Assembly: GCA_030538705.1 (NCBI GenBank) | Contig: JAUNTL010000029.1 | Location: forward strand, 1-32,349 | Length of the DNA stretch: 32,349 nt | Direction of reading: 5' to 3' | Source: Paracoccus sp. (in: a-proteobacteria) | GTDB taxonomy: Bacteria > Pseudomonadota > Alphaproteobacteria > Rhodobacterales > Rhodobacteraceae | In this document: positions 3,215-20,077 of the stretch, piece after piece | How the letters are laid out: every line of letters starts with the position of its first letter | How positions within the stretch are numbered: position 1 is the stretch's first letter | Translations under genes and position numbers: made by a program | The notes under the pieces: generated by a model | Databases searched by the model: none | Told to the model about the DNA's origin: nothing | The model's input: the letters and a program-made list of their open reading frames with translations, nothing else

Positions 3215-6200
3215 TTATTTTTTATTGGTCGAGTTCCTCCAATTTCGGCACAGGCTAAGGTAGTCACGGGCGTCCTTGCTCAGCCGAGCAATTCCCACAA
3301 GGCGTGCCAATTCCAATTCCGGGTCATCGGCCGCGTCAATATTCGCCGAAAACCGGTCGATCAGTTCGGCAATTTCGGCGCGTGATATTTCGCGCAAAGC
3401 GCGCTGTTGAAGCCCGCGAAAGGGAACGCGGTCACGCAGGCTGTCTTTGGTCCATAGAAATACGATCTCGTTCTCGACGGTTTTATCAAACATATCATGA
3501 TGGGCAGCTATACGTGCCTGAATGCGGCCACCCGTCCGCTGCCAACCATGTTTTTGCGCAATTGCGCGGGCAAGTGTCGCTTCTGGCATCGGGCCGCTAT
3601 TGGCAATCACATCTTGCATCATCGCGGCCAGATAGGGGGCATAATCGCTATCGAAAAAACGGCTGGCGTCGGGGCTGGTCGTCATCTGTGGCGGGGCCGC
3701 TTGCGCCGTTGTCGCACTTGCGGCACTGTCGGGTTCTTCAGCGCGGTGGGGGGCGGTGGAGTCGGCTTCGGGTCCCTCGTCTGTCTCAGCTATTGGAGCC
3801 TGGGCTCTTTTTGCGCGGTCCGCTTCAAGTATGGCGTGCAGTTGTTCGTCGATCCGCGTCAACGTTGCGTCAGCCTGCCTGAACCAATCGGTTGACCAGA
3901 TGCGCAGGATCGACCAGCCCAGACCTTCCAACACGGCTTGGCGGATGCGGTCACGGTCGCGCGCGGTCGCGGATGAATGATAGCGCGCGCCGTCGCATTC
4001 CACGCCGGCCAGCCAAACGCCCGCATAATCGGGGTGACGCACGCCGAGGTCGATGCGGAAACCGGACACGCCGATCTGCGTGTGAACCTCCCATCCTTTG
4101 GCCGTCAGGGCATCCTGAACCGCCTGCTCAAAGGGCGAATCCACTGGACCGAGCGAGCCGCTATCCCGCGCCCCAAGCGCGACCGGTCCGCGTTCCGCAA
4201 AATCCAGAAACGCCTTAAGGTCAGCGACGCCTCGCGCACGGGTGCGGGACAGGTCGATCTGGTCGGCGGTGATCGAGGCGAACACATGCAATTCGGCACG
4301 GGCACGAGTGATCGCAACATTCAGCCGTTTTTCGCCGCCATCCTTGTTCATCGCACCAAAGTTCATTGTGAACTTGCCCGCCTGATCCGGGCCGAAGGTG
4401 ATCCCAAACAGCATAATATCGCGTTCATCCCCCTGAATATTCTCAAGGTTCTTGACGATCAGCGGCTCTTCACGTTCGTCGGCAAAAAACCATTCCAGCG
4501 CTGGGTTGGCCTTTCGCTCGGCATCGAGCAGATCAAGGATTAGACCCTGCTGCTGAGCATTGAACGTGATCACCCCTAGTGTCGGTCGGCGGTCTTCTGG
4601 CAGTTTCAGCCATTGGTTCAGCCGGGTGCGCATAAAGCCGATCATCGCCCGCGCCTCGTCCGGGTTTGTCGAGCCGCTGCCCCGCTGGTAAACGCCCTTG
4701 ACCTTGTGCAGCCGCACCGCATTGCCGGATGCGTCTGGCGACGGAAAGGTGACCAGACCGCCATCGTAGTAATGTTGGTTGGAAAAGGCGATCAGAGCCT
4801 CATCCCGGCTGCGGTAATGCCAATTCAGGCGATGCGTAGGGATTCCGGCCGCTGCCACCTCATCCAGAATGGATGGCATATCCTTTTCGTAGTCTTCAAG
4901 ACCTGCGGCCTCATCCACACCATCGTCGCTGCGGCCAAAGAAATTGGTGGGAGGCAGCTGTTTCGGGTCTCCGACGATGATCGCCCGACTGCCGCGCGCA
5001 ATTGCACCAATCGCGTCCCAGGTCGAAATTTGCGAGGCTTCATCAAAGATCACCAGATCGAATTGCGCCTGTCCTGCGGGCAGATATTGAGCAACCGACA
5101 GCGGCGACATCAGCACACATGGCGCCAGCTTTGGAAAGGCGGTCGGCATGTCGCCAATCAGGCTGCGAATGGCGCGCGTGGGACGTTGCAGTCCAAGTTG
5201 ATGTCGCAAGACGCCCAGTTCAGAATTGCGTGGCACGGAATCGCGGGTAGGCAAGTCATTGCCAAGTCGGCGCATTACCTCGCCCGAGGCTATACCAGCA
5301 AGCGCTGCGTCCAATTGGCGAAAGCGGCCGATCAGCGCCTCGTGTTCCCAATGGGCAAAGCCGCGCAGGCAGAGTTCGGCATCCATCGCCAGACGCAGCC
5401 ACCACGCCATGTAAGCCTGCTGGAACGCCTGTTCCGCGTCATTTGTGACGGTGCCGTCCTCTAAGGCATCAACCAATGCAGCCAGACCGGCATTCACGGC
5501 TCTGGCCCGGCTATCGCGCCATTTCAGCCAATCCGCAAAGCGATGCTGCAAAGGTTCCAACGTGCCAAGCAAAGTCTCGGCACCTTGCTGTGCCGTGCCG
5601 CCGAGATCGGTGAAGAGGCTTTGCGCATGAAAGGCCTTCTGATCGGTATCCACAAGCGATTGCAGGAAGGGCTGAAACAGGCCGCCAGATGCTGATGTCA
5701 GTTCGCTACGGTGGTCTTCCAGACGGTCAGACGGAATGCCAGCCCTTCGTAAGCCCCGTTCCAGTTCGAGATAGGCCAGCGCCGCATCATGTTCGGCACG
5801 GATCCGCTTTGCATCGCTGACCTCGCCCGCGAAACCGGGCCAAGCGATCAGGGTCGATGCCGCGATTTCCTGCCGCGCGCGCAGCAATTGCCGCAAGGCG
5901 GGCAGGTCGCGTTCCGGGTCGGCCTGACCAGTGGTCGCATAACTTTGCAATAATCGCTGCTGTTTCCGCTGCGCCACGCCGCGCAACAGCCAACCCTTGC
6001 CAGATGCCTCTCGCCATTGCAGGTCCAGTGTATCCAGCGGTATGTCCGCTAATCGGTCGTCTGGATAGGTGGCCGACAGCGCTTTTCGCGCGGAGGCGGC
6101 GCTTTGCTGCGCATCTTGCAAACGGATGAATTGTTCATCAAACGCAGCAGTGTTTTGCATGGCAGCCGACGAAATGGCCGGCTGACCCAGCCGCTTGGCC

Positions 6201-8971
6201 GCCAACAGATTTAGCGCCGCTGCAATTTCAGGCGTTTCCTCGGACAGCCCCAATCGCGCCGAAAGCGCGGCGCGCGCGCCCTTTGCTGCCGATAAAGCTC
6301 CTCGTAAAGTGCGGGCACTGTCCAGAAAGCTGTCTTGCCAGCCAAAGGACCAGTCACCACGATCCAGCAGAGACAATGGCCCCGCCGGGTCAAGATCGGA
6401 AATTATTTGATGTCGCACACCCAATTCAGCGGCAAGCGCGCACAGACGCTGCCAGCTTTCCGTGTCATGGCAATCCTTGTTGTCAAAGCGCAGTGCGAAA
6501 GGCGCGGCGCGGCCAGCCACCTTGCCAATAGCCTGATACACGCTGAAACCCTGTGTGCCGGGGCGGTGCAGCGCATCAACATAGGCGTTCAACTGATCTC
6601 GGGTCAGCCGTAGATCATCGGCAACACGGATCCAGTTAGCGGCTTTTGCTGCGCTTGCCCGTTCCCATGACCGGCCAAGTTGTGTCAGCACGCTTTTGCG
6701 GTCGGCCTTGCTGGAGTGAAGCTCTAACACCGCGTCGCCTAAGCCGTGCTGTTCCAAACGGCGATGGACGACATCCAGCGCCGCCGATTTTTCCGCGACG
6801 AACAGCACCGTGCGCCCGCGTCCAAGCTGATCGGCGATGATGTTGGCAATGGTCTGACTTTTGCCAGTGCCGGGAGGGCCGATCAGCACGAAATCGTGGT
6901 TCTGCTTGGCCGCCAGCACCGCCGAAAGCTGCGAGCTGTCCGCAGGCAGCGGCGCCAGAATATCGCCGGGCGCATATTTGCGGTCGATATCGGAAGGGCA
7001 TGGCATGGCCGTTCCCGACCCTTCAAAGCTCTCCGTCGGGTTGTCGACCAGATGCGCAACCAGCCGGCTTTCGCGAAGGCTGTCCATGCGATCGACCAGA
7101 TCCTTCCACATCAGATACTTAGCGAATGAGAAGGTCGAAAGCGCGCATTCCTCGACGATCTCGAAGCCGGCCACATCGCGCACGCGGTGACGCAGGATGT
7201 CCATGATGCGGGGAATATCCAAGCCACTTTGATCGCGCGGCAGTTCGCCTTCCAGTTCGGGAATGCGCAGCTCGAAATCTCGCTTCAGCATTTCCAGCAG
7301 AGTCGAGTTGATACGCACCTCGTCCTCAAGCTGGCTGAGCCGGTATTCGGATTGCGCCGACCGCCGGTCAAGTTTGGCTGGCAATAGCAGCAGAGGCGCG
7401 CGATAGCTGCGCTGATCCGTAGCGGTGCGTTTCCAGCGCAGAAAGCCGACAGCCAGAAACAAGGTGTTCGTACCGCCCTCGGCCAGATCGCTTCGGGCTT
7501 TGCGATAAAGTTCGGTCAGCCGGTTCGTCATCTCGCGTTCGGTCAGCGGCACCGCAATCTGGCCGCGTAACAGCGCGTCCAGCGCAAGCTCGGATTCGAT
7601 CTGCCGCGCCGCTTCTGCCGAAAGATCGCGGCCAGAGATGGCATGTTCGTCTTTCAGCGCCAGCAGACGGAACACTTCTCCACCGGCCAAACGATCCTCG
7701 GTCCCGGCAATATCAGGACAAAACATCGGCACCGTGCCGCGCGTTTCGCGAAAGTTCAGCAAGCGGTTAACCAAAGACAGGTCCAGCAACTTGCGCTGCC
7801 ATCGTTCAATTCGGCCCATCGGCGTGCTGGGCGTTTCATCCGCGATCTCGCCGGGCAGCAGTCCAAGATCCAGCGGGCGCGGCAGAGCAGCGGGTGCGGC
7901 CTCGATCACCTCTGTCGGTCCCGCGTCTTGAATCCGGTGACTGGCCAAGGGGCGGATACGCGCAGCGCGGGCGCGGTTGATGTCAACAACCTGCTCGAAC
8001 TCGACTTCGCGCGCCTCGGAAAGCCGATCCGTTCCGCTTTGCACCGCTTGATCAAAGCCAATCGCGGGCCGCTGGCACAGCAAGGTGGTTTCAATCGGCA
8101 CAAATTCGCGGGCGACCACGGCCTTGCGCACCGCGACGACATCCGGTTCAACCAAGCGGCCAAAGTCCTTTTTCACCAACCAGACGCCAGCCCAAGCGTG
8201 ACCGTGCGAGAACAGGACCGCCGTGTTCAGCCCCGCCGCCTCATAAGCGGCGACCAGCAATAGTGTGCTGTCCAGGCAGGTTGCTAACCCTTCGGACAGG
8301 ATGCGTTCCGGGTCGCGGATTTTCTGGCCGATGCGCTCGAATGAGGCAGGGGGCACGGCATAGCTCAGGCCCAGCCCTGTTGCCGCTGACCAGATCGCCC
8401 CAGCCAGCATCCAGACCCGCAGCGGATCGGCCGACTGATAACCGTCCAGCGCACCGGAATGACCTGCCGCCTCCAGCAAGCTTGACGCAGTTTTCAGCAT
8501 GCGCGCCACCGATGGCTGATTGGGAGAAACAAAGGCGGCGAGGATGTTGTCCATCTCGACGATCCCGCCCCATTCATCACGGGCCAGCATCTCAACGGGG
8601 TGGGTGGTCGTTTCGCCGTCAACTCCTTGGGCAGAAATGGTAAATTGCAATTGTCCGATTTCAGCTTCATCCAGCCCCGCCAGTATCGCAATATCCAACG
8701 GCGTTTCCAGATCGGTCAGATGGATCGTCGCGCCCGCCGCAATTCGGTCGATGGTCCAACGCTTTTCGCGCAGGATTGCGGGGCTTGCGGTCAGGGTCAG
8801 AGTGACCTGTTCCGCGGCGGCTGCGCCCATATTCTCGACCGACAGCTTTTTGATGACCGCCACACCGTTCTGCGCCGTCGCAAAGTTCACCTTGGCCGCC
8901 AATGTCGGATGCAGCGCAAGCACGGGCTGCGGTGTGGCGGGCGCGGGATCGGGCATGTCGGGGGTGTGCAT
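3215..8971 (-). CDS. Large SF1 helicase-nuclease: transglutaminase-like, DUF4011, helicase, Vsr-like nuclease, DUF3320
   Basis: This 1918-residue multidomain protein probably unwinds and cuts DNA. An N-terminal region (about 185-295) looks transglutaminase-like, with C232 in ATCLDS, H258 in GHAWAGVW and an acidic residue in VPIETT near 294. DUF4011 (about 387-640) carries the RWQRKLLDLSLVNRLLNFRET signature. The helicase core has Walker A GPPGTGKS (698-705), a long helical insert, Walker B FDLVIFDEAS (1304-1313), GDPKQLPP (1334-1341), NWHYRS, QGDERDI and NVAITRAR (1551-1558). A Vsr/MTES_1575-type nuclease follows with D1641, E1658 and D1660, then a DUF3320 domain (about 1775-1830). I chose the ATG at 8971 over the in-frame one at 9043 because GAAGG precedes it and it lies 11 bp after the upstream stop. 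It is the last gene of a three-gene operon. As I recall, DUF4011-helicase-Vsr proteins were reported as single-gene anti-phage systems (Hhe). Confidence 0.88.
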   Translation of the reverse strand: MHTPDMPDPAPATPQPVLALHPTLAAKVNFATAQNGVAVIKKLSVENMGAAAAEQVTLTLTASPAILREKRWTIDRIAAGATIHLTDLETPLDIAILAGLDEAEIGQLQFTISAQGVDGETTTHPVEMLARDEWGGIVEMDNILAAFVSPNQPSVARMLKTASSLLEAAGHSGALDGYQSADPLRVWMLAGAIWSAATGLGLSYAVPPASFERIGQKIRDPERILSEGLATCLDSTLLLVAAYEAAGLNTAVLFSHGHAWAGVWLVKKDFGRLVEPDVVAVRKAVVAREFVPIETTLLCQRPAIGFDQAVQSGTDRLSEAREVEFEQVVDINRARAARIRPLASHRIQDAGPTEVIEAAPAALPRPLDLGLLPGEIADETPSTPMGRIERWQRKLLDLSLVNRLLNFRETRGTVPMFCPDIAGTEDRLAGGEVFRLLALKDEHAISGRDLSAEAARQIESELALDALLRGQIAVPLTEREMTNRLTELYRKARSDLAEGGTNTLFLAVGFLRWKRTATDQRSYRAPLLLLPAKLDRRSAQSEYRLSQLEDEVRINSTLLEMLKRDFELRIPELEGELPRDQSGLDIPRIMDILRHRVRDVAGFEIVEECALSTFSFAKYLMWKDLVDRMDSLRESRLVAHLVDNPTESFEGSGTAMPCPSDIDRKYAPGDILAPLPADSSQLSAVLAAKQNHDFVLIGPPGTGKSQTIANIIADQLGRGRTVLFVAEKSAALDVVHRRLEQHGLGDAVLELHSSKADRKSVLTQLGRSWERASAAKAANWIRVADDLRLTRDQLNAYVDALHRPGTQGFSVYQAIGKVAGRAAPFALRFDNKDCHDTESWQRLCALAAELGVRHQIISDLDPAGPLSLLDRGDWSFGWQDSFLDSARTLRGALSAAKGARAALSARLGLSEETPEIAAALNLLAAKRLGQPAISSAAMQNTAAFDEQFIRLQDAQQSAASARKALSATYPDDRLADIPLDTLDLQWREASGKGWLLRGVAQRKQQRLLQSYATTGQADPERDLPALRQLLRARQEIAASTLIAWPGFAGEVSDAKRIRAEHDAALAYLELERGLRRAGIPSDRLEDHRSELTSASGGLFQPFLQSLVDTDQKAFHAQSLFTDLGGTAQQGAETLLGTLEPLQHRFADWLKWRDSRARAVNAGLAALVDALEDGTVTNDAEQAFQQAYMAWWLRLAMDAELCLRGFAHWEHEALIGRFRQLDAALAGIASGEVMRRLGNDLPTRDSVPRNSELGVLRHQLGLQRPTRAIRSLIGDMPTAFPKLAPCVLMSPLSVAQYLPAGQAQFDLVIFDEASQISTWDAIGAIARGSRAIIVGDPKQLPPTNFFGRSDDGVDEAAGLEDYEKDMPSILDEVAAAGIPTHRLNWHYRSRDEALIAFSNQHYYDGGLVTFPSPDASGNAVRLHKVKGVYQRGSGSTNPDEARAMIGFMRTRLNQWLKLPEDRRPTLGVITFNAQQQGLILDLLDAERKANPALEWFFADEREEPLIVKNLENIQGDERDIMLFGITFGPDQAGKFTMNFGAMNKDGGEKRLNVAITRARAELHVFASITADQIDLSRTRARGVADLKAFLDFAERGPVALGARDSGSLGPVDSPFEQAVQDALTAKGWEVHTQIGVSGFRIDLGVRHPDYAGVWLAGVECDGARYHSSATARDRDRIRQAVLEGLGWSILRIWSTDWFRQADATLTRIDEQLHAILEADRAKRAQAPIAETDEGPEADSTAPHRAEEPDSAASATTAQAAPPQMTTSPDASRFFDSDYAPYLAAMMQDVIANSGPMPEATLARAIAQKHGWQRTGGRIQARIAAHHDMFDKTVENEIVFLWTKDSLRDRVPFRGLQQRALREISRAEIAELIDRFSANIDAADDPELELARLVGIARLSKDARDYLSLCRNWRNSTNKK

Positions 8972-8982
8972 AAGCGTGGCCT

Positions 8983-11900
8983 TCAAGCGGTTTGCAGGTC
9001 GATGATGTTGACGTTCGAACAGGTCGCGCGGGCGATGTCGCACAGGTGCCGGTGATGGGTCAGATAGATGACCTGACCCACGCGGGACATCTCGCCGAGC
9101 AGCGAAAACGTCGCTGTGGCACGGCTGTCATCAAAGGTTTCCATGATGTCGTCGGCGATGAAGGGCACCGCCGGGCGGCTTTGCGCCAGTTCGTGATAAC
9201 CCGCGATACGCAGCGCAAGATAAAGCTGAAAGCGCGTCCCCTTGGACAGATCGGCGGCCAGCTTGGTGCCGCCTTGCGCGGCAGTTGCGACCAGCAGCTC
9301 TTTCGCGCCGTCGGGTTGCGTCGAAAGGCCGGTATAGGCGCCGCAGGTCAGACGGCTGAACGCATCTGACGCGCGCGACAGCATCGCGCTGCGATGTTGT
9401 TCGCGATAGCGGCGCAGCCCGGCTTCAAAGGCCATCAGCCCCAGACGCCGCGCCATATGCTGTTGAACGCGATCTTGCATCTCCAACAGCAAATTGGCGC
9501 GCTCTGCCGCAATCTGTGCCAACGCGTCATCGCCCCCGACTGCCTCAAGCCGCGCATTCGCTTGCAGAAAGGCAGCGTGCTTGGACTCACTTTCGTCACG
9601 TCTGACTTGGAAGTCTGTCTCGATGGCGTAGATCTTGCTGCGTAGTATCTCGGTATCGTCATCGCCTGACGAGGGCATATCACGCAAATCATCGTCGATG
9701 CTATCGATCTGTTGTCGCAGCCGCATAGCTGTCAAACATTTGTCGATATGGGCTTGCAGCGGGCCGTCATCTGGCACCCAGCCAAGCGCATTGCCCAAGG
9801 CATCGTGCTCCGCTTGCCGCGCATCGCGCAGGTGGCGGTCATCGGCGTCCTGCTGCGTCTCGTCGGCGATCTGTTGATCAAGCGTCGCCCGATCACGGGC
9901 GCGGTCCTCGGCCTGACGCAATCGCGACAAAATCAACTCCCAAGGATGCGTCATGGGCAGGTCCAACGCGGCGCAGATCGCGGATTTGGCGGCTGAAAAG
10001 CGGTCGCGATTGGCCTCCATCTTGGCGATGCGGTCATCCAAAAGGGCCAATGCGCGATGCTCGGTGCCCAATTCGTCCAGCTTGTCCAGCATCGTGCCAA
10101 GTGCGGGGGTGTCGTCGGGTTGGCCGGCAAGCGCGCTGTCCTTGCTGGCCTCGGCCCAGGTGCCGCGCCATGCATTCAGTGCAGTTGCGGCATCCTTTTC
10201 GTTTCTCTCGCGCTCTCGCAGATCGGCGGTCAGGGCGGTTAACCGGCGCCGTGTTTCGCGGCGCCGCTGGGTGGCCTCGACCCTCGCGGTGGCGGTCGCC
10301 AAAAGGGTTTCGTAATCGCCTGTCAGACCCAGCAGTGCCGCAAGGCTGTGAGCGGCCTGCGCCAGATCTGTCTCGCTGCGTGACAGCGCCGCTTTTGCCT
10401 CGGCCCACGCTTTATATTCTGTCAGCGCAGTCTGACGAAGCGTCAACCAGCGGGCCAACTCAGTCAGCCCGGCCCCGCTAAGCGCAAGCGGCGTCAGAGC
10501 GGCCTCAATGTTGGCCGTGGTTGCCGCGCGGTCCTGCCGTGCAGCCTGCGCCGCCGCTTCGGCCTGTGCAAGGCGCGCGGTCAGCCTGTCTTGTTCCGCG
10601 CCCCGTTGCGCCACGCGGCGTGCCTCGGCCATGGTTTCCGCCAAAAGGGCCGAGATGCGGTCATCCTCGCGCAGCGCCTTTTCGAACCGGTCGGCGCTGT
10701 CGCCGTCCAGCGCCGCGCGATGGGCGGACCATGCTGCCTCGCGCCGCGCCCGTGCGACCCCGGCATCGGCAAGGCTGATCCCCGCAGCCGCCGCGCCCTG
10801 TGCCTGATCCGACAAATCGGCCTGCATCTGCTCAAGCTGTTCGCGCAGCGTTTCGATCTGACGGTCAGCGTTGGCCTGTTGTTGTCGCGCGCTCTCGGAT
10901 GCGGTCTGCCACGCCTCGATCTGCCAAGGCGGCGGCGGGGTCAGCGCGGCCAAAGCCTCGGCATCGCCCGACCAAGGCGCCAGCGCGGCAATCGCAGCGG
11001 CTAGGCGTGCGCTTGCCTGATCGTGGTCGCGCCGCGCACGGGCCAGCGCGTCGGCGGGGTCTTGTATGCGCAGACGGGTCAGCCGGGCGGCCAGTGCGTC
11101 GTCATCTTGATCGGGCGCGGTGTCCTCGGCATTATCCTGTTCCCGCGCCAAAGCATCGGCGGCCTTTTGCGTTTCGGCCTTTGCTCCCGATGCGGCGGTT
11201 ACCAAGCCTGACCGTTCGGCCAATAACCCGCGCATCCGCGAAATCGCGGCAGGTGCAAGGACGGTCTCCGCAACATCGTCGTCTGAGCAGCCCAGTTCCG
11301 ACATCAGCGCCGCCAAGCGTGAGCGGCTGTCGCGGGCTTCGTTCAGACGGCGCGGCAGATCCGTAATCGCGGTGTCATGCTCGGCCCGCACAGCTTCGGC
11401 AGCTCGCACCGCTTCGGCCTGCGCCAAGATCGCCGGATCGGCGGGCAGGGCATCTTTTTTAGCGTGGAATCCCGCAAGCCTCAGCGCTCGGTCACCGATG
11501 CGGCTGTCAAGCGCGGCCAGATCGGCGCAAAGCCGCACGGCGTTTTTGTGCTGTGAATCATCAACCTGCGCAAGGTCGCGTAGAGGCCCAAGTTCCTCTG
11601 TTAGCGCTTCCCGCTTGACGCGCAACGGCACGGCCGCAGCAATTTTGCGCAGCTGATCCAGCTCAGCCTGCGTCTCGGCCTCAAGCCTTCGCGCATCGCG
11701 CCAATCCTGTTCACTGGCCTCAACCTCGCGGGTCAGCGCCTTTAGTGTGGGCGCAGAAGTTTCAATCGCGCGGTGCTGCTTTTCCAGCTCGGCCAGTTGG
11801 CGTTTCGCATCAACCAGCCAGCCGCTGCGCGCTTTTGGGCGGTGAAAGCCGTCAAGCTCTTTGCGGATCGTTTCCAGCCGTGGGACCAGACCCGCCAGAC

Positions 11901-12366
11901 CCGCGCTGGCCGAAAACAGCATTTCGCCCAGATCGCCATCACTGGCCAAAATACTGTCGCCCCCCTGTTCCAGCGTATCATCATCCAGCGAGAACATCGC
12001 GGAATACCCCTCGCGCGAGAGATTCCCCAGCAGCGGGCCGAGGCGCGCCTCAGGCACCGCCGCGTCATGCTGATCGAACAGGCTGGCGCCCCTGTTCTTT
12101 TGCCGCCTGAGTTCCAGCGTAGCGCCATTCCCCGACAGCCGTGCGCCGATTTGCATGGTCGGGCCGGGATGCAAAAAATCATAGCGGCTGCGCTGCGGGA
12201 TGCCGAATAGCAGATCGAGCCATGCCAAGAACAGCGTCGATTTCCCCGCCTCGTTCGGGCCAAATATGATATGCAGATCGTGACCGCCTAGCGCCGGTTC
12301 CGCAAAGTGCAGCGCCTTGTCGGTAAAGGCACCATAGCGGGTCAAATCCAAACGTTCCAGCCGCAT
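8983..12366 (-). CDS. SbcC/YhaN-type ABC ATPase with long coiled coils
   Basis: This 1127-residue protein resembles the YhaN (COG4717) branch of the SMC/Rad50/SbcC ATPases. These ATPases partner an Mre11-type nuclease and act on DNA ends. The N-terminus is MRLERLDLTRYGAF, with Walker A GPNEAGKST at 36-44. Most of the middle (about 170-1000) is Ala/Glu/Arg/Gln-rich, consistent with antiparallel coiled coils. The C-terminal lobe has a signature-like LSKGTRFQLYLALR (about 1040-1053), Walker B VPFIADDIMETFDD (about 1067-1080) and the LTHHRH switch region (about 1102). I see no CxxC zinc hook in the middle, unlike classical SbcC. The ATG at 12366 overlaps the preceding stop (TGATG); a TTG one codon earlier is possible. 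Coupling to the nuclease gene upstream suggests a complex. Confidence 0.88.
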   Translation of the reverse strand: MRLERLDLTRYGAFTDKALHFAEPALGGHDLHIIFGPNEAGKSTLFLAWLDLLFGIPQRSRYDFLHPGPTMQIGARLSGNGATLELRRQKNRGASLFDQHDAAVPEARLGPLLGNLSREGYSAMFSLDDDTLEQGGDSILASDGDLGEMLFSASAGLAGLVPRLETIRKELDGFHRPKARSGWLVDAKRQLAELEKQHRAIETSAPTLKALTREVEASEQDWRDARRLEAETQAELDQLRKIAAAVPLRVKREALTEELGPLRDLAQVDDSQHKNAVRLCADLAALDSRIGDRALRLAGFHAKKDALPADPAILAQAEAVRAAEAVRAEHDTAITDLPRRLNEARDSRSRLAALMSELGCSDDDVAETVLAPAAISRMRGLLAERSGLVTAASGAKAETQKAADALAREQDNAEDTAPDQDDDALAARLTRLRIQDPADALARARRDHDQASARLAAAIAALAPWSGDAEALAALTPPPPWQIEAWQTASESARQQQANADRQIETLREQLEQMQADLSDQAQGAAAAGISLADAGVARARREAAWSAHRAALDGDSADRFEKALREDDRISALLAETMAEARRVAQRGAEQDRLTARLAQAEAAAQAARQDRAATTANIEAALTPLALSGAGLTELARWLTLRQTALTEYKAWAEAKAALSRSETDLAQAAHSLAALLGLTGDYETLLATATARVEATQRRRETRRRLTALTADLRERERNEKDAATALNAWRGTWAEASKDSALAGQPDDTPALGTMLDKLDELGTEHRALALLDDRIAKMEANRDRFSAAKSAICAALDLPMTHPWELILSRLRQAEDRARDRATLDQQIADETQQDADDRHLRDARQAEHDALGNALGWVPDDGPLQAHIDKCLTAMRLRQQIDSIDDDLRDMPSSGDDDTEILRSKIYAIETDFQVRRDESESKHAAFLQANARLEAVGGDDALAQIAAERANLLLEMQDRVQQHMARRLGLMAFEAGLRRYREQHRSAMLSRASDAFSRLTCGAYTGLSTQPDGAKELLVATAAQGGTKLAADLSKGTRFQLYLALRIAGYHELAQSRPAVPFIADDIMETFDDSRATATFSLLGEMSRVGQVIYLTHHRHLCDIARATCSNVNIIDLQTA

Positions 12367-13622
12367 CAATCTGCCAATTCTGCCGCAAGTGCCGACAGGA
12401 TGGCCGGCGTTCCCTGTGCCAGAAGATCGCGGCAGATTTCGGCCTGTTCGGCCTCGCTTTGTCCCAGCAAACCGCGCATTTCCGCCGGCAAGGCATTTGC
12501 CAGCTCTTGCGCGGCCAATGTGATCGCAGCGATCAGTCCGGGATCGTCCGGCAGGTCGTCATGCAGGATCCGGATCAGATCGTCAGGCAGATCCGAAACG
12601 GGCGAGTGACCGTCACCATGATCCGTCTGAATCTCAAGCTTGTCGATCCAGATGCCTGCATCACCTGCAAATGCGCGGACCTCTTCGGTCAGCTTGTCGT
12701 AATCTCGCGCAATGCGCCACGCCTGCCAAGTGTTGCCGTGCAAAACCGGGCGGATGACAAGCTGTTCGTCGGGCAACCGGTCGCGCGCCGCCCCCTCGAT
12801 TGCGCGCTGCAATGCAGTCAGCAGGTCCGCCCAATCGCTGATCCCGTTGCAATCAACCATCGCGCGCTCGAACCGCAAGGGCGCGACGACCCGCTGTTCC
12901 AGTGTGAGGCTGTTGTCATCCGCCACACTGACCAAAGTGACCGAGCAACACCCCGCCTCGCCAATATCGCGGCCTTGCGGAATGCCCGGCATAACGATGG
13001 TTGCAGCCCCATTATGTTCCGCGCGGCGGTGGATATGCCCCAGGGCCCAATAATTATAGCCATGCGCCATCAGCGCCGCGGGCGGGCAGGGCGCATAATT
13101 GTCATGGCCGGGACTACCGCTCAGGCTGGTATGCATCATGCCTATGTTGAATGCCCCCGACTTAGGTGCGGGATAGCGTGGCAACAGGCTTTCCGATGCT
13201 TGACTCTCGCGAAAGCTCAGACCGTGAATGGCGATGTGATGACCGTTCACCTCTATTTCTGCAGTAGAGGCACGGGCACCGAATACGGTCGTATCGTCGG
13301 GTGCATCCAATTCTCCGGTGCGGCGGGCGAGAGCATCGTGATTACCGCGAATGATGAAACAGGAAATCCCGGACCGGTGCAGGCGCAGCAGCTCCTGCTT
13401 TAGAAAGCGCGGGGTTTTTGTGGAGCTGTATTCGCCGTCCCAAAGATCACCTGCGATCAGCAGAAAAGCCACGCCTTCCGAGATGCACAGATCAATAATG
13501 CGGGTAAACGCTGTCCTTGAGGCGGTGCCGATCTCCCGAGCAAGTTCGCCATCGCGAAATGCCATCGCCCTAAGGGGCGCGTCGAGATGCAAATCGGCGG
13601 TATGTATGAAACGAAAGCTCAC
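12366..13622 (-). CDS. SbcD/Mre11-type DNA nuclease (YhaO-like metallophosphoesterase)
   Basis: This 418-residue calcineurin-like phosphoesterase belongs to the SbcD/YhaO group, which cleaves DNA with two metal ions in partnership with an SbcC-like ATPase. All metal-binding motifs are present: D10 and H12 in TADLHLD, D59 in AGDLWDG, N94-H95-D96 in RGNHD, H164 in MMHTSLS, and H196/H198 in GHIHRR. The start is GTG at 13622, because the first motif would otherwise be lost and no upstream ATG is in frame. The C-terminal 200 residues would be the ATPase-binding cap. It is the first gene of the three-gene operon, and its stop overlaps the next start. An inverted repeat lies 34-49 bp upstream of the start and may be an operator. 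Confidence 0.88.
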   Translation of the reverse strand: MSFRFIHTADLHLDAPLRAMAFRDGELAREIGTASRTAFTRIIDLCISEGVAFLLIAGDLWDGEYSSTKTPRFLKQELLRLHRSGISCFIIRGNHDALARRTGELDAPDDTTVFGARASTAEIEVNGHHIAIHGLSFRESQASESLLPRYPAPKSGAFNIGMMHTSLSGSPGHDNYAPCPPAALMAHGYNYWALGHIHRRAEHNGAATIVMPGIPQGRDIGEAGCCSVTLVSVADDNSLTLEQRVVAPLRFERAMVDCNGISDWADLLTALQRAIEGAARDRLPDEQLVIRPVLHGNTWQAWRIARDYDKLTEEVRAFAGDAGIWIDKLEIQTDHGDGHSPVSDLPDDLIRILHDDLPDDPGLIAAITLAAQELANALPAEMRGLLGQSEAEQAEICRDLLAQGTPAILSALAAELAD

Positions 13623-14903: not shown

Positions 14904-14960
14904 AATTCCGCTTTCGTTGCGGATTTAATGGCCAATATTCAGTTTAGGAAGAAAAACATC

Positions 14961-16790
14961 ATGGACATGAGCATGAATCTCTTTACCAAAGCAACGCCGA
15001 AATCCCGTCCCGTCAATATCGAGACGATGGAGGATGTGAAGCAGTATATCGAGGTCGAAGGACCTTCCTATCTGCTTCAGTCACTGCGCACGCTGCGCTC
15101 GCATACGATGGATCAGCCGCTGACGACGATCCCCGCTGATCCGGAATGGATCGAGCATCATTTCCCCAAAGTGAAGCGTGGCGTTCATCCGCGCCCGGAT
15201 CTTGACCAGAAGGTCGAGCCCTATAAGAAATGGCGCGCCGATCTGCTGCGCGCCGTCGCAATGGCCACCGGTGCGAAGGCGACCAAGGCCGCGCTGCGCG
15301 CCCGCGAAGATTCCTGGGCGTCGCTGATCGAAGGCGCGATGCTGCACACGAGCAATGGCGGGATCATCCACAAAGCCTCCGCGTCGCTGGTCATCAGAAT
15401 GGCGGATATTGCCCGGCGGGCCGAGGTCGAACCATGGGAATTGGCGGAGCCGGATGTCGTGGCGCGTCTGGAAACCGGGTTCGCATCAAAAGTTGATCGT
15501 GACAGCCTGCGCCGGGCCTTCCGCTTTCTCCAAAACTGGCGGTTCCTTCCCGAGATCGGCGCGCATCTGCCCGAAGCAGATCTGGCCGAGGTTCCGCGCT
15601 TGCGCGACCTGACCGCGCTGCCAGCTCATATCGACAAGGCGATTCTGGACCTGGCCGAAACGGCAGCCTCCAGCCGCGACGAGGTGGCCGAAGAGGACAG
15701 CAGGCAGGTCAGCGACAGCACGCTCGCGGTCTATCTCGCGGCGCTGCGTTATCATGTCCGCACTCTCTCCGACGCGCTCGATGAGCCTGATAAGGGCTTT
15801 CGCAACAGCTTCCGGGATCTCGATCAGGTGAACGACGTGCTCCAGCTCTTTTCGATCGAGAATATTTCGGCCGCGATTCGGCATAGCCAGAGCCGCGAGG
15901 ACGAGCCGGGCGCCCTCTCGCAAGTTTCCGTCGCCAGCTATTACAGCACAATCCTGGTGGTGCTTTCGCGAAACCAGATCGACGTGGCGGCATTGGTCAA
16001 GGCCATCAAGTCATCGCGATACATTCAGGAGGGACGCGAACTGGATCAAGGCATGCGGCCCGAGACCCAGAAATGGTGCGAGGCGCTGCTGGCCAATCCC
16101 GAGCGGGAACAACGATTCCGGAATTTGCACCGGATACTCAAGGCGAAGGCGGATACCATACTTGATCAGGCGGCAGCGGAGCGTCGTCCGCTGACGGCAC
16201 TCGAACTGACCCGAGCGCGTTCGCTTGGCACGGCGGCCGCCGCCTCGGCGATTGAGTGGGCTGGTCGGCCTATCCGGCTGGGCAGTGTGCTGAGCCTGCG
16301 GCTGCGCGGTGCCGGCGCCAATTTTTTTCTTCCATCAAAGCACAAGCCGGATTTCCGGTTCGTCTTAAAGGCCGAAGATACCAAGGCGAAGAAAGAGGAA
16401 CCGGAGACCATTCTTCGGCGCGAGCTTCACGGCCATGACGTGATGAGCTGGTATCTGGCCAAGATCCGGCCGCTGTTTCCGCATGCCGAGCGCAACATCT
16501 TCCTGTTCCCCGCCGTCGAGACTGGCGGAAAGCCGCTCTGCAGGGGAGTGTTCGATACCTGGTTCCAGCGTGCCGCCACCGAGGCCGGACTGCCGATGAC
16601 GTTCCACCGCTGGCGCCACGGCTATGCAACCCTGCTCTTGGATGCGGATTTCACGAACCTGCAGGTGGCCGCCGACATGCTCGGCAATACGACAGCGGTC
16701 TGCGCCCGTAACTACGCATGGATCAACAAAACGAAGCTTTTCCAGCAGGGGCAGGACATCCTGATCGCCCGCAGCCGAGGGAAGAAGTGA
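14961..16790 (+). CDS. Tyrosine recombinase A, 609 residues
   Basis: This is a large integrase-type site-specific recombinase. The C-terminal catalytic domain shows an arginine around 436-439 (GRPIRLGSVLSLR), H549 and R552 in TFHRWRHGYATLLL, a helical stretch ending ADMLGNTTAV where other integrases have a His or Trp, and the probable nucleophile Y585 in ARNYAWI. The N-terminal 350 residues would hold the core-binding region and an unusual extra segment. The ATG at 14961 is preferred over the in-frame one at 14928 because AGGAAG (14946-14951) precedes it with a 9-nt gap. Its stop overlaps the start of the second recombinase. At over 600 residues it is longer than most phage integrases. Two adjacent recombinases recall Tn554-type elements. 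Confidence 0.8.
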   Translation: MDMSMNLFTKATPKSRPVNIETMEDVKQYIEVEGPSYLLQSLRTLRSHTMDQPLTTIPADPEWIEHHFPKVKRGVHPRPDLDQKVEPYKKWRADLLRAVAMATGAKATKAALRAREDSWASLIEGAMLHTSNGGIIHKASASLVIRMADIARRAEVEPWELAEPDVVARLETGFASKVDRDSLRRAFRFLQNWRFLPEIGAHLPEADLAEVPRLRDLTALPAHIDKAILDLAETAASSRDEVAEEDSRQVSDSTLAVYLAALRYHVRTLSDALDEPDKGFRNSFRDLDQVNDVLQLFSIENISAAIRHSQSREDEPGALSQVSVASYYSTILVVLSRNQIDVAALVKAIKSSRYIQEGRELDQGMRPETQKWCEALLANPEREQRFRNLHRILKAKADTILDQAAAERRPLTALELTRARSLGTAAAASAIEWAGRPIRLGSVLSLRLRGAGANFFLPSKHKPDFRFVLKAEDTKAKKEEPETILRRELHGHDVMSWYLAKIRPLFPHAERNIFLFPAVETGGKPLCRGVFDTWFQRAATEAGLPMTFHRWRHGYATLLLDADFTNLQVAADMLGNTTAVCARNYAWINKTKLFQQGQDILIARSRGKK

Positions 16791-18232
16791 TGAACATGGC
16801 GGTTTGTCCGGTTCAGAAAGCACTGTCCCAGGATCACGAACGCGGCCTGCCACGTTCAGTGATCTTGCGGCAGCCACATATGGAGCATCTGCTGGATCAC
16901 ACGGCGATCCACGCGATGACGGATCAGGAACTGGCCGCCCTCGAACGGCTGATGCGGTTCTGCGGCGCGCACGCGCTGGCCGATCCCGACCGGATCGACA
17001 TCGCCGCCTTTGCTACTTTGGCCGAACAGGATGGCAATGACCTGACCCTGCTGGGACAGGCGCTGGCAGCACTGGCCGCGCCGGTTGAACTGGTGGGCGC
17101 CATGCAAGTGGAGGCGGACAGGATCCGCCATCGCGAAGGGTTTGATGGCATCAGCCATCGCGCCCGTCCGAAAGAGCGGCGGGTGTCCGTCAATCCCGCG
17201 GACTTACCGCAGCAATGGAAGGACAAGCTGGCAGAACTGGACAGAGACAGAGCATTCGCACCCTCGATCCTCGGCCGCATGCGCCAAAGGCTGTGTCTGT
17301 TTGCGTGGAGTGCCAAGGAAGCCGGGCTGCCGCCCGATCTGACATCTGTCCCGGCGCTGAAAGCACTCTATCGCGATATTCGCAGCCGCTCGGCCGGCAA
17401 GAATGAGGACGGGCCGCGCTTTGCCTATCTCCGATCAACATGGGAGGAACTCAACCGCGTCGCGATCGCGCTGGGCCTGACGGATGATGCGCGGGGGATC
17501 CTCACCGGAACGCTGAACGAGCTGGAACGTCTTGAACAGGGCCAAACGCCGCGCAAGTTCACCTGGCTCGCGGGCGCACCTCAGGCCAGCGACCTCATCC
17601 GCCGCGCCGGGAAGATGCTGGAAGAGGCCAGCAAACCCACGCGACCGGATCATCGTCATGCCCGCCGCAATGCTGCAGCAGCCATTGCTCTTGCCAACAT
17701 CGTTCCGGCCCGTCCCGGCGATGTCTTCACGCACCATGTGTTCGGTAAGGGCTTACATTTTGATCCCGGACGCGGGGCTTGGCGGTTCAGCTACACACCG
17801 AACAAGACCAGAGGAATGATCCCGGATCCCCTCGAACTGCCGCTCGATCCATTCTGGAACCGGTATATCGACGCGCTCATTCTGCAAGACCACGAGCCTC
17901 GCTGGCTTGGCGAGCTCCGGCAAGCGGCGATCGAGCGGCAACGCCCACTTTACATGAACTACGATGGATCCCGCTGCTCGCCGCGCTGGTACAGCCGGAT
18001 TTGGGCCAAGCACATTGGCACCGGCGGGCATATCGCGCGCAGCCTGATCTATGACGAGATGTCCGATCTGGGTGAGCTCGGCATCCAGTACGCCAAACTG
18101 GTAAATCACCACCGCAGCGAAACGATCCCGGAGAAATATCGCGGGCAGAACGCTATCAGGAAAAGCTACAACCGCGGCCAGGAGGCAATGATCCTGCGGG
18201 CCGGGGATGAAGATATCAGCGGACTGGTGTAG
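16790..18232 (+). CDS. Tyrosine recombinase B, 480 residues, divergent
   Basis: The start ATG overlaps the stop of recombinase A (TGATG), so the two are translationally coupled. The protein carries a divergent but apparently complete tyrosine recombinase set: an arginine in VPARPGDVFTHHV, a lysine in TPNKTRGM, the H and R of HIARSLIYDEM, and NHHRSETIPEKYRG, which supplies a second histidine and the presumed nucleophilic tyrosine. The N-terminal half is rich in helices and probably binds DNA. It would act with recombinase A, perhaps as a heteromeric complex that inserts or excises the surrounding island. Spacing between the H-R pair and the tyrosine looks somewhat unusual, so it could also be a structural partner without activity. 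Confidence 0.7.
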   Translation: MNMAVCPVQKALSQDHERGLPRSVILRQPHMEHLLDHTAIHAMTDQELAALERLMRFCGAHALADPDRIDIAAFATLAEQDGNDLTLLGQALAALAAPVELVGAMQVEADRIRHREGFDGISHRARPKERRVSVNPADLPQQWKDKLAELDRDRAFAPSILGRMRQRLCLFAWSAKEAGLPPDLTSVPALKALYRDIRSRSAGKNEDGPRFAYLRSTWEELNRVAIALGLTDDARGILTGTLNELERLEQGQTPRKFTWLAGAPQASDLIRRAGKMLEEASKPTRPDHRHARRNAAAAIALANIVPARPGDVFTHHVFGKGLHFDPGRGAWRFSYTPNKTRGMIPDPLELPLDPFWNRYIDALILQDHEPRWLGELRQAAIERQRPLYMNYDGSRCSPRWYSRIWAKHIGTGGHIARSLIYDEMSDLGELGIQYAKLVNHHRSETIPEKYRGQNAIRKSYNRGQEAMILRAGDEDISGLV

Positions 18233-18321: not shown

Positions 18322-19110
18322 GAGGCTGTGTCAAAACTGTCTGGCGAGTGCCGTTTGATCGCAGATTTCCGAGGCTGGGGAAACCTTCAGCGCAAATCGT
18401 CCAGTCGCTCGCATGATGTCTGGAGCAGGCTTGATGGGCCCTGTGAATCTAACCAGTACGAACAAGATTGGGCAGAACGGTCTGATCAGGCCGGAATAGC
18501 CTGCATCAGAGGCCGGATACCGATCAGGGAGATCACTCGCTTTATGTTGTAGGCCAGAACGTTCAGGGCCATTTCGGTGCGCACGTTTTTCAGCGTGCGG
18601 GTCAGGAAATGGGTGTGTCCCATCCAGGCCTTGATCGTGCCGAAGGGGTGCTCGACGGTGCAGCGGCGAAGCGTCATCGGATCGATGTCCCGACTCAGCC
18701 TTTCGCTCATCGCGTCGATCAGATGCTCATGCTTCCATCGGGTGATGCGGCGTTCCGTGCCGGTTGTGCATCGGCTTTGCAGCGGGCAGGTCTGGCATTC
18801 GTTGATCCAGGATCGCCGGACCTGAACACCGCGCTCCTCGGTGGTGTAGCGGTAGATGAGTTCCGCACCCGCCGGGCAGACATAGACGTCGCGCTCGGGA
18901 TCATAAGAGAAATCAGCCTTCACATACATGCCCTTGGCCGCATTGCCCGAGGTGGCCGGTCGCCGCACGGTCGTGTTGATGCCTGCCTCATGGCAGGTAA
19001 GGATCTAAGGTCCGCTGAAGTAACCCTTGTCGGCGATGGCATGCAGTTCTTCGCGATGGAGCACGTCTTTAGCCGCAATCGTCATCGGGCTGAGCTGTTC
19101 GCGGTCATCG
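18322..19110 (-). mobile_element. IS1182-family element remnant
   Basis: The outer end is recognisable at 18322-18338, GAGGCTGTGTCAAAACT, a typical end of this kind of element. The inner part up to about 19110 encodes the C-terminal two thirds of the transposase on the minus strand. At about 19110 it is cut by the end of an IS256-type element, and the missing N-terminal portion is not found beyond that element, so a deletion must also have occurred. Confidence 0.65.
18486..19110 (-). pseudogene. IS1182-family transposase, truncated with a nonsense codon
   Basis: From about 19110 downward the frame reads DDREQLSPMTIAAKDVL, then ADKGYFSGP, a TAG, and ILTCHEAGINTTVRRPATSG. It goes on through CxxCPLQSRC-type zinc-like spacing to the family signature VEHPFGTIKAWMG and the end at 18486. 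The TAG stands where the family has a glutamate codon, so a single G-to-T change explains it. Frame is kept on both sides, which makes this a fairly young inactivation. The N-terminal catalytic part is missing. It cannot produce active transposase. Confidence 0.8.
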
Positions 19111-19788
19111 GGGAGTGTCTTTAACTCTGTGTATCTGTCCTGGCCCATGCGGTTTTCAGATACAATCAGGCGTCGAAGCGCCCGGCGAACATTATGGCCA
19201 GCTGATTGCGGGCCGCAACCCATTCCCGGACGGCGCGGCCGCCCTTCTCGAAGTTGCGGGTGGCCAGGAAGATCAGCTTCGTGGCCGCCTCCTCGGTCGG
19301 GAACGAGCCCTTCGTCTTCAGCGTTTTTCGCAGCACCCGGTTCAGCGATTCCACGGCGTTCGTAGTGTATATGATCTTCCGGATCGCGGCGCTGAAGGCA
19401 TAGAAGGGGGTGACCTCGGCCCATGCCCGACGCCAGGCTGGGGCGATCGAGGGGTATTTCCCGGCCCATTTCTCTTCGAAGTCATCGAGCTGGCGGGCGG
19501 CCTCCTCGGCGGTAGGAGCTTCGTAGATCGGGCGCAGGCCGGCAGCCACGGCCTTGCGGTCCTTCCAGCTGCAGAAGTTCATCGAATGGCGGATCAGATG
19601 CACTTATTCTTGATACAGGTCTGGACCGTGGCCTCTGGAAAAGCGGCCGTGATGGCCCCCGGGAAGCCCTTCAGCCCGTCCAAGACGGCGATCAGGATGT
19701 CCTGAACCCCACGGTTACGCAGTTCGTTCATCACCGACAGCCAGAATTTGGCGCCCTCGTTGTCGGCGATCCAGAGGCCCAGAGGCAC
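19111..19788 (-). mobile_element. IS256-family element remnant
   Basis: The right end is at 19111, beginning GGGAGTGTCTTTAACTCTGT, a typical IS256-family terminus located 55 bp past the transposase stop. The other side ends abruptly at about 19788 inside a rhodanese gene, with the N-terminal half of the transposase missing. The element therefore lies between an IS1182 remnant and a truncated host gene, which points to insertion followed by a deletion. Confidence 0.7.
19166..19788 (-). pseudogene. IS256-family transposase, truncated and frameshifted
   Basis: The minus strand encodes [19 protein letters not shown] and [20 protein letters not shown], then after a frame change [18 protein letters not shown] and YTTNAVESLNRVLRKTLK. 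These are the middle and end of a mutator-type (IS256) transposase. The break is an 8-bp insertion at 19604-19611 (TTATTCTT on the plus strand) between the codons for TCI and VHLIRHS; removing it restores the frame exactly. The N-terminal half is absent. The downstream part reads open to the normal stop at 19166. Confidence 0.82.
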
Positions 19789-20077
19789 AATAGAAGACGT
19801 AGGTCTTACCCTCGGCGAATTGGGGTTTATGATAGGGGCTTTCCGGGTCAATCCAGAACTCGAGCATCCCCCACGGTGCATGGGACGCTCCGTGGATCAT
19901 GCCATCACGCTCCAATTCCCGCGGGTCGCGGATATCGACGAGCAGGAAATTTTCGGTATCGGTGCGCTCGGCAATTTCCGCCGCGCTGACCGAAGTCACG
20001 ATTGCCTCCGCATCGGCGAGCATCTGTTTGTAACCAATGGCTATGCGTTTCGTCCTTCGAGGCTGTGTTTCTGTCAT
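19788..20077 (-). pseudogene. Rhodanese-like protein, truncated by IS256 remnant
   Basis: The frame from the ATG at 20077 encodes about 96 residues of a rhodanese (sulfurtransferase) domain: AEIAERTDTENFLLVDIRDPREL, then [17 protein letters not shown] and KTYVFYC. The catalytic cysteine of YVFYC is still present, but the active-site loop and the C-terminal helices that should follow are replaced by IS256 sequence. Rhodaneses transfer sulfane sulfur and are common in sulfur metabolism. This one is not expected to fold. It lies near a possible sulfonate-degradation operon, but no functional link can be shown. Confidence 0.7.

Follow-up and report, generated by a model that had tools for sequence, protein, structure and literature searches.

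An Mre11-Rad50-type gene pair recurrently adjoins the ProA anti-phage gene in Paracoccus and other bacteria

We describe a three-gene operon of Paracoccus sp. (assembly GCA_030538705.1, contig JAUNTL010000029.1) in which genes for an Mre11-like nuclease and a YhaN-type coiled-coil ATPase are followed directly by the gene for a giant helicase-nuclease of the ProA family. The window analyzed is the whole 32,349-base contig, part of a 3.40-Mb assembly that is 86.6% complete. The trio is not unique to this genome, adjacent trios being found in others, and Mre11-Rad50-type pairs of two distantly related families adjoin ProA in four gene arrangements. Such recurrent pairing in several gene orders suggests that DNA-end recognition helps ProA defense, and we consider it reasonably probable that the locus consists of a ProA anti-phage gene and an Mre11-Rad50-type accessory module that would find or prepare DNA ends for ProA. 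The features of the operon are as follows.

12366..13622, minus strand: Mre11/SbcD-like metallophosphoesterase, 418 amino acids (aa), GTG start, first gene of the operon (Pfam Metallophos, 1.3e-13)
8983..12366, minus strand: YhaN/Rad50-like coiled-coil ATPase, from the ATG within the TGATG overlap (Pfam AAA_27, 1.2e-66, and motifs)
3215..8971, minus strand: ProA helicase-nuclease, 1918 aa from the ATG at 8971, the longest reading frame starting from the GTG at 9043 (NF058533, PDC-S37)
8054..8446, minus strand: likely ProA transglutaminase-like domain, about aa 200-330, with C256, H282, and E318 (alignment of relatives, Pfam)
7286..7792, minus strand: ProA DUF4011 domain (PF13195, 152.8 bits)
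4271..6940, minus strand: ProA split superfamily 1 (SF1) helicase (profile matches to SMUBP2, Sen1, Dna2, and Upf1 structures)
3839..4132, minus strand: ProA MTES_1575 (Vsr-like) nuclease domain (PF18741, 8.4e-35)
3518..3661, minus strand: ProA DUF3320 domain (PF11784, 4.8e-12)

The three open reading frames (ORFs) are intact and tightly packed on the minus strand: 12366-13622 (418 aa), 8983-12369 (1128 aa), and 3215-9043 (1942 aa from GTG, 1918 aa from ATG). On inspection, the Mre11-like and YhaN-like genes meet in a TGATG overlap and the YhaN stop codon lies 11 bp before the ProA ATG, just as a preliminary description of the contig had reported. Pairwise ratios of nonsynonymous to synonymous substitution (dN/dS, NG86) relative to homologous trios were 0.11-0.17 for ProA, 0.12-0.32 for the Mre11-like gene, and 0.25-0.36 for YhaN, rough values given that dS exceeds 1 in all comparisons; YN00 gave 0.36-0.54 for YhaN and no result for 8 of 15 pairs. 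All three genes look to be under constraint, YhaN least.

The giant protein matches the NCBIfam model NF058533 (“anti-phage protein ProA”) along the full profile (positions 1-1903 of 1903) with 2070.5 bits, the cut-off being 1500, and its best PADLOC match is PDC-S37 (1141.5 bits). By these profiles it is a member of ProA/PDC-S37, a curated anti-phage family whose anti-phage role is the NCBI label, and the linked ProAs of R. beringeri, M. loti, and a further class genome (G516) are likewise full-length NF058533 members. The preliminary description had taken the protein for Hhe (NF042953), an assignment we reject: it reaches 767.9 bits in two matched stretches against a cut-off of 2000, and in PADLOC 526 for Hhe versus 1141 for PDC-S37. 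Comparison with defense profile collections, which that description had called for, finds the effector already covered by NF058533 and the PADLOC candidate PDC-S37.

The Pfam domain chain of ProA runs DUF4011, AAA_11/AAA_12, MTES_1575 (a Vsr-like restriction endonuclease, REase), and DUF3320, and its helicase profile matches structures of SMUBP2, Sen1, Dna2, and Upf1. Helicase residues K728, D1334/E1335, and R1580 and REase residues D1665, E1682, and D1684 are present (1942-aa numbering). E1682, numbered E1658 in the preliminary description, is there as claimed but is E in only 51 of 76 relatives, D1665 (74) and D1684 (71) being steadier. The N-terminal part likely holds a transglutaminase-like domain, with the triad C256, H282, and E318 kept in 72, 72, and 70 of the 76 aligned relatives. 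Pfam matches at E ≤ 1 in 40 ProA members were to DUF553 in 21 and Transglut_core in 17, the best at about 1e-4 and the window's own at 0.07, and matches of this region to PDB structures have E 0.66 or worse. We regard the domain as likely, not proven: the weak Pfam matches agree with the architecture given for the relative MTES_1575, of which a transglutaminase-like domain is part according to an excerpt of PMC3710099, while solved structures match at E ≥ 0.66. The same excerpt has DUF3320 overlapping a winged helix. The ProA of another genome of the genus (G038) is nearly identical to one on a Paracoccus yeei plasmid, and in Pseudomonas aeruginosa a DUF4011 gene is conserved beside a defense hotspot (PMC10250203, in extract).

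The Mre11-like protein matches archaeal Mre11 structures (E 6.5e-12), and its phosphoesterase motifs are those of the Mre11-type nuclease superfamily. Among the phosphoesterase residues that bind metal and substrate in Mre11, D10, D59, N94, H95, H164, and H198 are invariant in a 14-row alignment and H12 is kept in at least 90%. Against SbcD (TIGR00619) the protein scores 46.1 bits, below the cut-off of 77.65. The YhaN-like ATPase passes the PF13514 (AAA_27) cut-off of 22 with 224.7 bits and has a single match to the curated Rad50/SbcC models, at 23.9 bits versus a cut-off of 700; it carries a Walker A motif (GPNEAGKS) and a Walker B region (VPFIADD), and no CxxC zinc hook is found in it. The Mre11 residues, the YhaN Walker A, and the helicase and REase residues are thus all in place, as the preliminary description had it. 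Its designation of an SbcCD-type pair holds for the Mre11 catalytic residues and the coiled-coil ATPase but not for family assignment: because both small proteins fall below every SbcD, SbcC, Mre11, and Rad50 cut-off listed, “SbcCD-like” is a description, not membership. A Walker B motif usually reads DE; the region reads DD in the window's YhaN (8983-12366) and in a short Rad50 (L152:14048-16681), and the short Rad50 has an alanine instead of the first glycine of Walker A, changes that could possibly make these ATPases slow switches.

Conservation was followed in 125 genus and 387 class genomes, with an Mre11 match above 140 bits as proxy for the pair. Within the genus, the trio is adjacent and in the window's order in three further genomes (G049, G107, and G111), YhaN being split by a 1.37-kb insertion in G111; a premature stop in the G049 YhaN, hinted at by the genome search, was discarded, the ORF being open over 1130 aa. 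In another genome (G031) the pair and ProA are both fragmented and lie about 25 kb from each other. Besides the window, Mre11 matches above 140 bits occur in 16 of 124 genus genomes and long ProA matches in 17, with six carrying both (expected 2.2, Fisher p 0.009). In the class, 28 of 386 other genomes pass the same Mre11 threshold and 12 have a ProA above the curated cut-off; four hold both (expected 0.87, p 0.007), and six do so with an alternative list of 11 ProA genomes from a protein search (p 3e-5), all these p-values ignoring shared descent (G356 and G486 belong to one genus) and island clustering. Mre11 adjoins ProA in three of the four double carriers (G356, G486, and G516), where uniform placement would predict about 0.03; neighbors may go unseen where contigs are broken. 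The Mre11 counts make it unlikely that the pair is housekeeping SbcCD. The preliminary description had proposed a search for co-occurrence of the three families and named a trio confined to this genome as evidence against its view; order and spacing are conserved in other species and families.

A scan of other ARRANGEMENTS (one genome per species) used a 16-row ProA alignment, 9 rows of which came from linked loci, and, out of 578 confirmed relatives, took the best 80. Of these best 80 ProA loci, 15 contain Mre11-like genes, and 12 of the 15 are counted as adjacent pairs; the Mre11 profile was seeded mainly with linked families and may miss divergent Mre11 of distant phyla. A ProA-like match occurs in 456 plasmid records and covers at least 80% in 49; among 21 plasmid loci viewed, nine have a complete adjacent pair (the Bosea ProA itself being split), three (H12, H19, and H23) a decayed pair, and nine no pair by profile or tblastn (H1, H5, H6, H17, H24, H26, H27, H28, and H32), H26 having only a weak Mre11-like match 3.7 kb upstream. 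An Mre11-Rad50-type pair adjoins ProA in 30 loci, some of them near-duplicates: 12 from the scan, 7 from the genus and class genomes (window included), and 11 on plasmids.

These 30 loci show four arrangements. Mre11-YhaN precedes ProA in nine (arrangement I: the window, G049, G107, G111, G356, G486, UBA6273, Cypionkella, and R. beringeri); ProA precedes Mre11 and a short Rad50 in 13 (arrangement II: Mesorhizobium, Rhizobium, Sinorhizobium, Aliihoeflea, Sphingomonas, Neoroseomonas, and Methylobrevis); ProA precedes Mre11-YhaN in two (arrangement III: Bosea and G516); and six are divergent (arrangement IV: five Mesorhizobium loci and one Hyphomicrobiales locus). With start codons picked by eye, the gap between the YhaN stop and the ProA ATG in arrangement I is 11 bp in the window, G356, G486, and G111, 13 in G107, 20 in G049, and 22 in Cypionkella; the two ORFs overlap in UBA6273 and are about 330 bp apart in R. 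beringeri. Six of eight loci, including the window, have the TGATG overlap of Mre11 and YhaN, with TAATG in G107 and another junction in R. beringeri, and in arrangement II all 13 loci have 2-14 bp between ProA and Mre11. A broken or contig-cut gene is present in 9 of the 30: YhaN is broken in G111, Rad50 in L153, L157, and L271, and ProA lies in two ORFs in Bosea L113 and L177; Rad50 is cut at or near the contig end in L158 and L161, and L206 has Mre11 only, with ProA in pieces.

Prior-free clustering of 627 neighbor ORFs from 77 of the best 80 loci (no ProA ORF passed in L200, L204, and L235) returned the Mre11-like family as the most frequent, in 13 loci. It was followed by a cluster from 11 loci (ABC transporters in the three members scanned), short Rad50 (8 loci), helicase-MTES_1575 proteins or ProA halves (5 loci, two members scanned), and YhaN (4 loci). 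Clustering the neighbors of 33 unlinked pairs gave no standout partner, the largest cluster covering six loci, with Paracoccus in the members shown. Three loci were not counted as linked: L162 with a canonical, convergent SbcCD, L183 with a lone weak phosphoesterase 440 bp downstream, and L169 with an Mre11-like gene 6.4 kb away, the last two standing as alone in the ProA tree. The L169 gene (L169:2442-3608, Akkermansiaceae) lies upstream of ProA, and one ORF of that locus clusters with the short Rad50; the locus may perhaps represent a pair outside Pseudomonadota. An 881-aa ATPase beside ProA in M. amorphae was considered as a Rad50 and not counted, since the copy in Mesorhizobium YC-39 matches PDC-S06; the seedR2 profile contained this ATPase and hence mixes two families. 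In two Mesorhizobium loci with a divergent pair (L163:15929-18574, plus strand; L114:3707-6352, minus strand) the 881-aa ATPase lies 30 bp downstream of ProA, and that of L163 matches the PADLOC candidate PDC-S06 at 556 bits, making it a possible further partner.

Linked pairs do not form one clade in the Mre11 tree (60 rows, quick IQ-TREE with SH-aLRT only and several long branches; rows below 180 bits or 200 aa were left out, which removed G027, L162, L169, and L183). At least six switches between unlinked and all other rows are required by its starred branches, and these may be gains or losses. One clade is exclusively linked and comprises eight arrangement I rows plus G031; the Mre11 proteins of arrangement II belong to a second, distant family in which every one of the nine rows is linked, with the unlinked G026 as sister row. 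Two distant linked Mre11 families are therefore difficult to explain by fewer than two recruitments, and the four arrangements point to further ones. In the ProA tree (76 rows, FastTree, rows below 1900 bits left out; plasmid loci L265-L274 are in neither tree) all 24 linked rows, the G027 remnant counted, fall in one 44-row clade. Judging by the distribution of linked and alone rows in this tree, linkage characterizes a single, mainly alphaproteobacterial ProA clade and changes often within it. G111, S. alkalisoli, and Rhizobium C104 combine an open ProA with a broken Rad50 or YhaN. Frequent lone ProA and decayed pairs beside open ProA mark the pair, therefore, as an optional helper or a separate module, and not as part of a strict three-gene system.

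Several observations weigh against reading the pair as an accessory module of ProA. The remainder of the 44-row clade consists of 18 rows alone (with 2.5 kb upstream and 1.5 kb downstream required for this label), one beside canonical SbcCD, and one unknown; outside the clade none of 20 determinable rows is linked and 12 are unknown, and the 80-locus set leans to ProAs like that of the window. Among the 28 Mre11-bearing class genomes besides the window, 25 have no adjacent ProA match. An intact ProA stands next to an in-frame remnant of the pair in G027, and an R. rhizogenes row classed as alone has a 43-aa Mre11 remnant directly behind an intact ProA. Viral contigs carry 29 ProA relatives, 13 of them with ProA-profile matches at E < 1e-200, and no pair was found near any of the 29; several linked or single loci sit among metabolic genes.

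According to an excerpt of PMC10586767, Mre11-Rad50 complexes act as sensors and processors of DNA ends, hairpin and protein-linked ends among them, and according to PMC12624138 Escherichia coli Mre11-Rad50 attacks the hairpin ends of phage N15 unless TelN protects them. If the pair serves ProA, the Mre11-YhaN complex would recognize DNA ends, including hairpin or protein-blocked ones, of phage or plasmid DNA that is entering the cell or replicating, and would trim or open them; ProA would then load, unwind the DNA through its Dna2/Upf1-like helicase, and cut it with its Vsr-like nuclease. ProA with the pair would be the immune counterpart of Mre11-Rad50 with Dna2 in end resection. More speculatively, the transglutaminase-like domain may cleave or cross-link a protein and so govern activation, and our guess is that self DNA would be spared through free ends being rarer in the host than in many invaders. 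A broader version, in which swappable Mre11-Rad50 pairs have repeatedly been recruited and lost as end sensors licensing a Dna2-like helicase-nuclease within an immune end-resection machine, with the transglutaminase-like domain as a further switch, is possible and put forward tentatively.

It is doubtful, though it deserves serious weight, that ProA and the pair are two independent defense or repair modules co-landing in islands, with ProA acting alone and the operon a convenience of co-transfer or co-transcription. Each often occurs without the other, both are found on plasmids, some pairs lie beside other defense-like genes, ProA survives pair loss, and two of six tested proteins over the ProA cut-off, the NF058533 members of Pseudomonas (L168) and Klebsiella (L274), have no pair nearby. 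Mere co-landing fits poorly with the 2-14 bp gaps in all 13 loci of arrangement II and the 11 bp in four loci of arrangement I, with the linkage of two distantly related Mre11-Rad50 families to ProA, and with the finding that no other specific neighbor family is nearly as recurrent around ProA in the 77 clustered loci.

A host or plasmid operon for DNA repair (end resection), in which the pair replaces a missing SbcCD and ProA is its repair helicase-nuclease, would suit the domain set, which is that of end resection, and the window's genome, where at 86.6% completeness no SbcD match passes the cut-off and the sole sub-threshold match is the Mre11-like gene. It is made improbable by the patchy occurrence of both partners (the 16 and 17 of 124 genus genomes given above), decay in several loci, plasmid settings, and the anti-phage label that NCBI gives to ProA. 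Less probable still is a Lamassu-like abortive system, with YhaN sensing DNA structures and ProA, through its transglutaminase-like domain, killing or arresting the cell: YhaN and the short Rad50 do match LmuB, but weakly (17-33 bits), no LmuA or LmuC appears among the seven window ORFs scanned, and the ATPase is accompanied by an Mre11 nuclease. The DD of Walker B, as if lacking the catalytic glutamate, does recall the substituted Walker B of LmuB described in an excerpt of PMC10586767. Set against these alternatives, the accessory-module reading is the one we favor. The observation made in the preliminary description is confirmed and its interpretation partly supported: the trio recurs and two pair families are linked to ProA, but the proposed new defense system has as its effector a curated anti-phage family that is often found alone.

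Annotated neighborhoods give a mixed answer on defense islands, also proposed as a check: some relatives lie among defense-like genes, others among metabolic ones. Defense-like neighbors of ProA include ThiF, E2/UBC, multiubiquitin, and Mov34/MPN, and those of unlinked pairs include Shedu and restriction-modification-like genes. Four Rhizobium/Sinorhizobium ProA loci (L155, L153, L266, and L271) stand beside ThiF, E2/UBC, multiubiquitin, or Mov34/MPN genes and helicases, and look like ubiquitin-like defense clusters. Insertions recur in large genes (L271, L153, L268, and L115), with IS21 lying within or next to Rad50 at two loci and interrupting the ProA of R. leguminosarum L268, besides the 1.37-kb insert of the G111 YhaN.

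In the window itself, a full-length DDE transposase ORF (1631-2563), transposase fragments (18486-18968 and 19594-19881), and a ParD-antitoxin match (E 7.6e-5) agree only in part with the surroundings given in the preliminary description, and its recombinase pair is reduced to one tyrosine-recombinase-like ORF (14928-16790, 620 aa, scoring below the Pfam cut-off), the second ORF (16718-18232, 504 aa) having no match at E 0.001 in Pfam, NCBIfam, PADLOC, or PHROGs. The two ORFs overlap, and 14928-18232 may represent a recombinase element of two genes. Close to the contig edge, the stretch 89-334 holds part of a phage tail-completion/virion morphogenesis gene (phrog_26, PF05069) and is likely what is left of a prophage.

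The novelty would lie in the partnership, not the effector, the locus being by its gene content an accessory-bearing form of a known defense protein. Our searches of a paper library showed no report of ProA with Mre11-Rad50/SbcCD; the paper behind NF058533, which was not located, may already report partners. The window's giant protein is a full-length ProA (NF058533; PDC-S37), but the model names ProA alone, whereas here it shares an operon with an Mre11-Rad50-type pair. The helicase-Vsr part is common to Hhe (DUF4011-helicase-Vsr, NF042953), reportedly from Gao et al. 2020, but the window protein falls below the Hhe cut-off. Like Mre11-Rad50/SbcCD, the pair combines a metallophosphoesterase and a coiled-coil ABC ATPase in overlapping genes and keeps the Mre11 active-site residues, but it scores below all the SbcD, SbcC, Mre11, and Rad50 cut-offs listed, its YhaN-type ATPase has no CxxC hook, and its distribution is patchy. 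In end resection, Mre11-Rad50 works with Dna2 in eukaryotes and with HerA-NurA in archaea. The logic of an end-sensing complex with a helicase or translocase and a nuclease is the same, the likeness of function being one of analogy, and ProA differs in its nuclease and in its extra DUF4011, transglutaminase-like, and DUF3320 domains; the archaeal combination appears in an extract of PMC12977600. The pairing offers a testable clue to what ProA senses, which may be DNA ends or blocked ends, and G049 (complete) and G027 (remnant pair) provide a natural with/without comparison. Lamassu (LmuABC) and Wadjet (JetABCD) likewise are immune operons that combine an SMC/Rad50-like ATPase with a nuclease or effector (PMC10586767, in part). 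The window differs from Lamassu in its Mre11-like nuclease and ProA effector, with no LmuA/LmuC match in the ORFs scanned; its ATPase matches LmuB at 17.4 bits on a coiled-coil stretch (PADLOC), and the three operon proteins have no Jet match there. If the accessory-module reading is true, Mre11-Rad50 would join Lamassu and Wadjet as a portable sensor in prokaryotic immunity.

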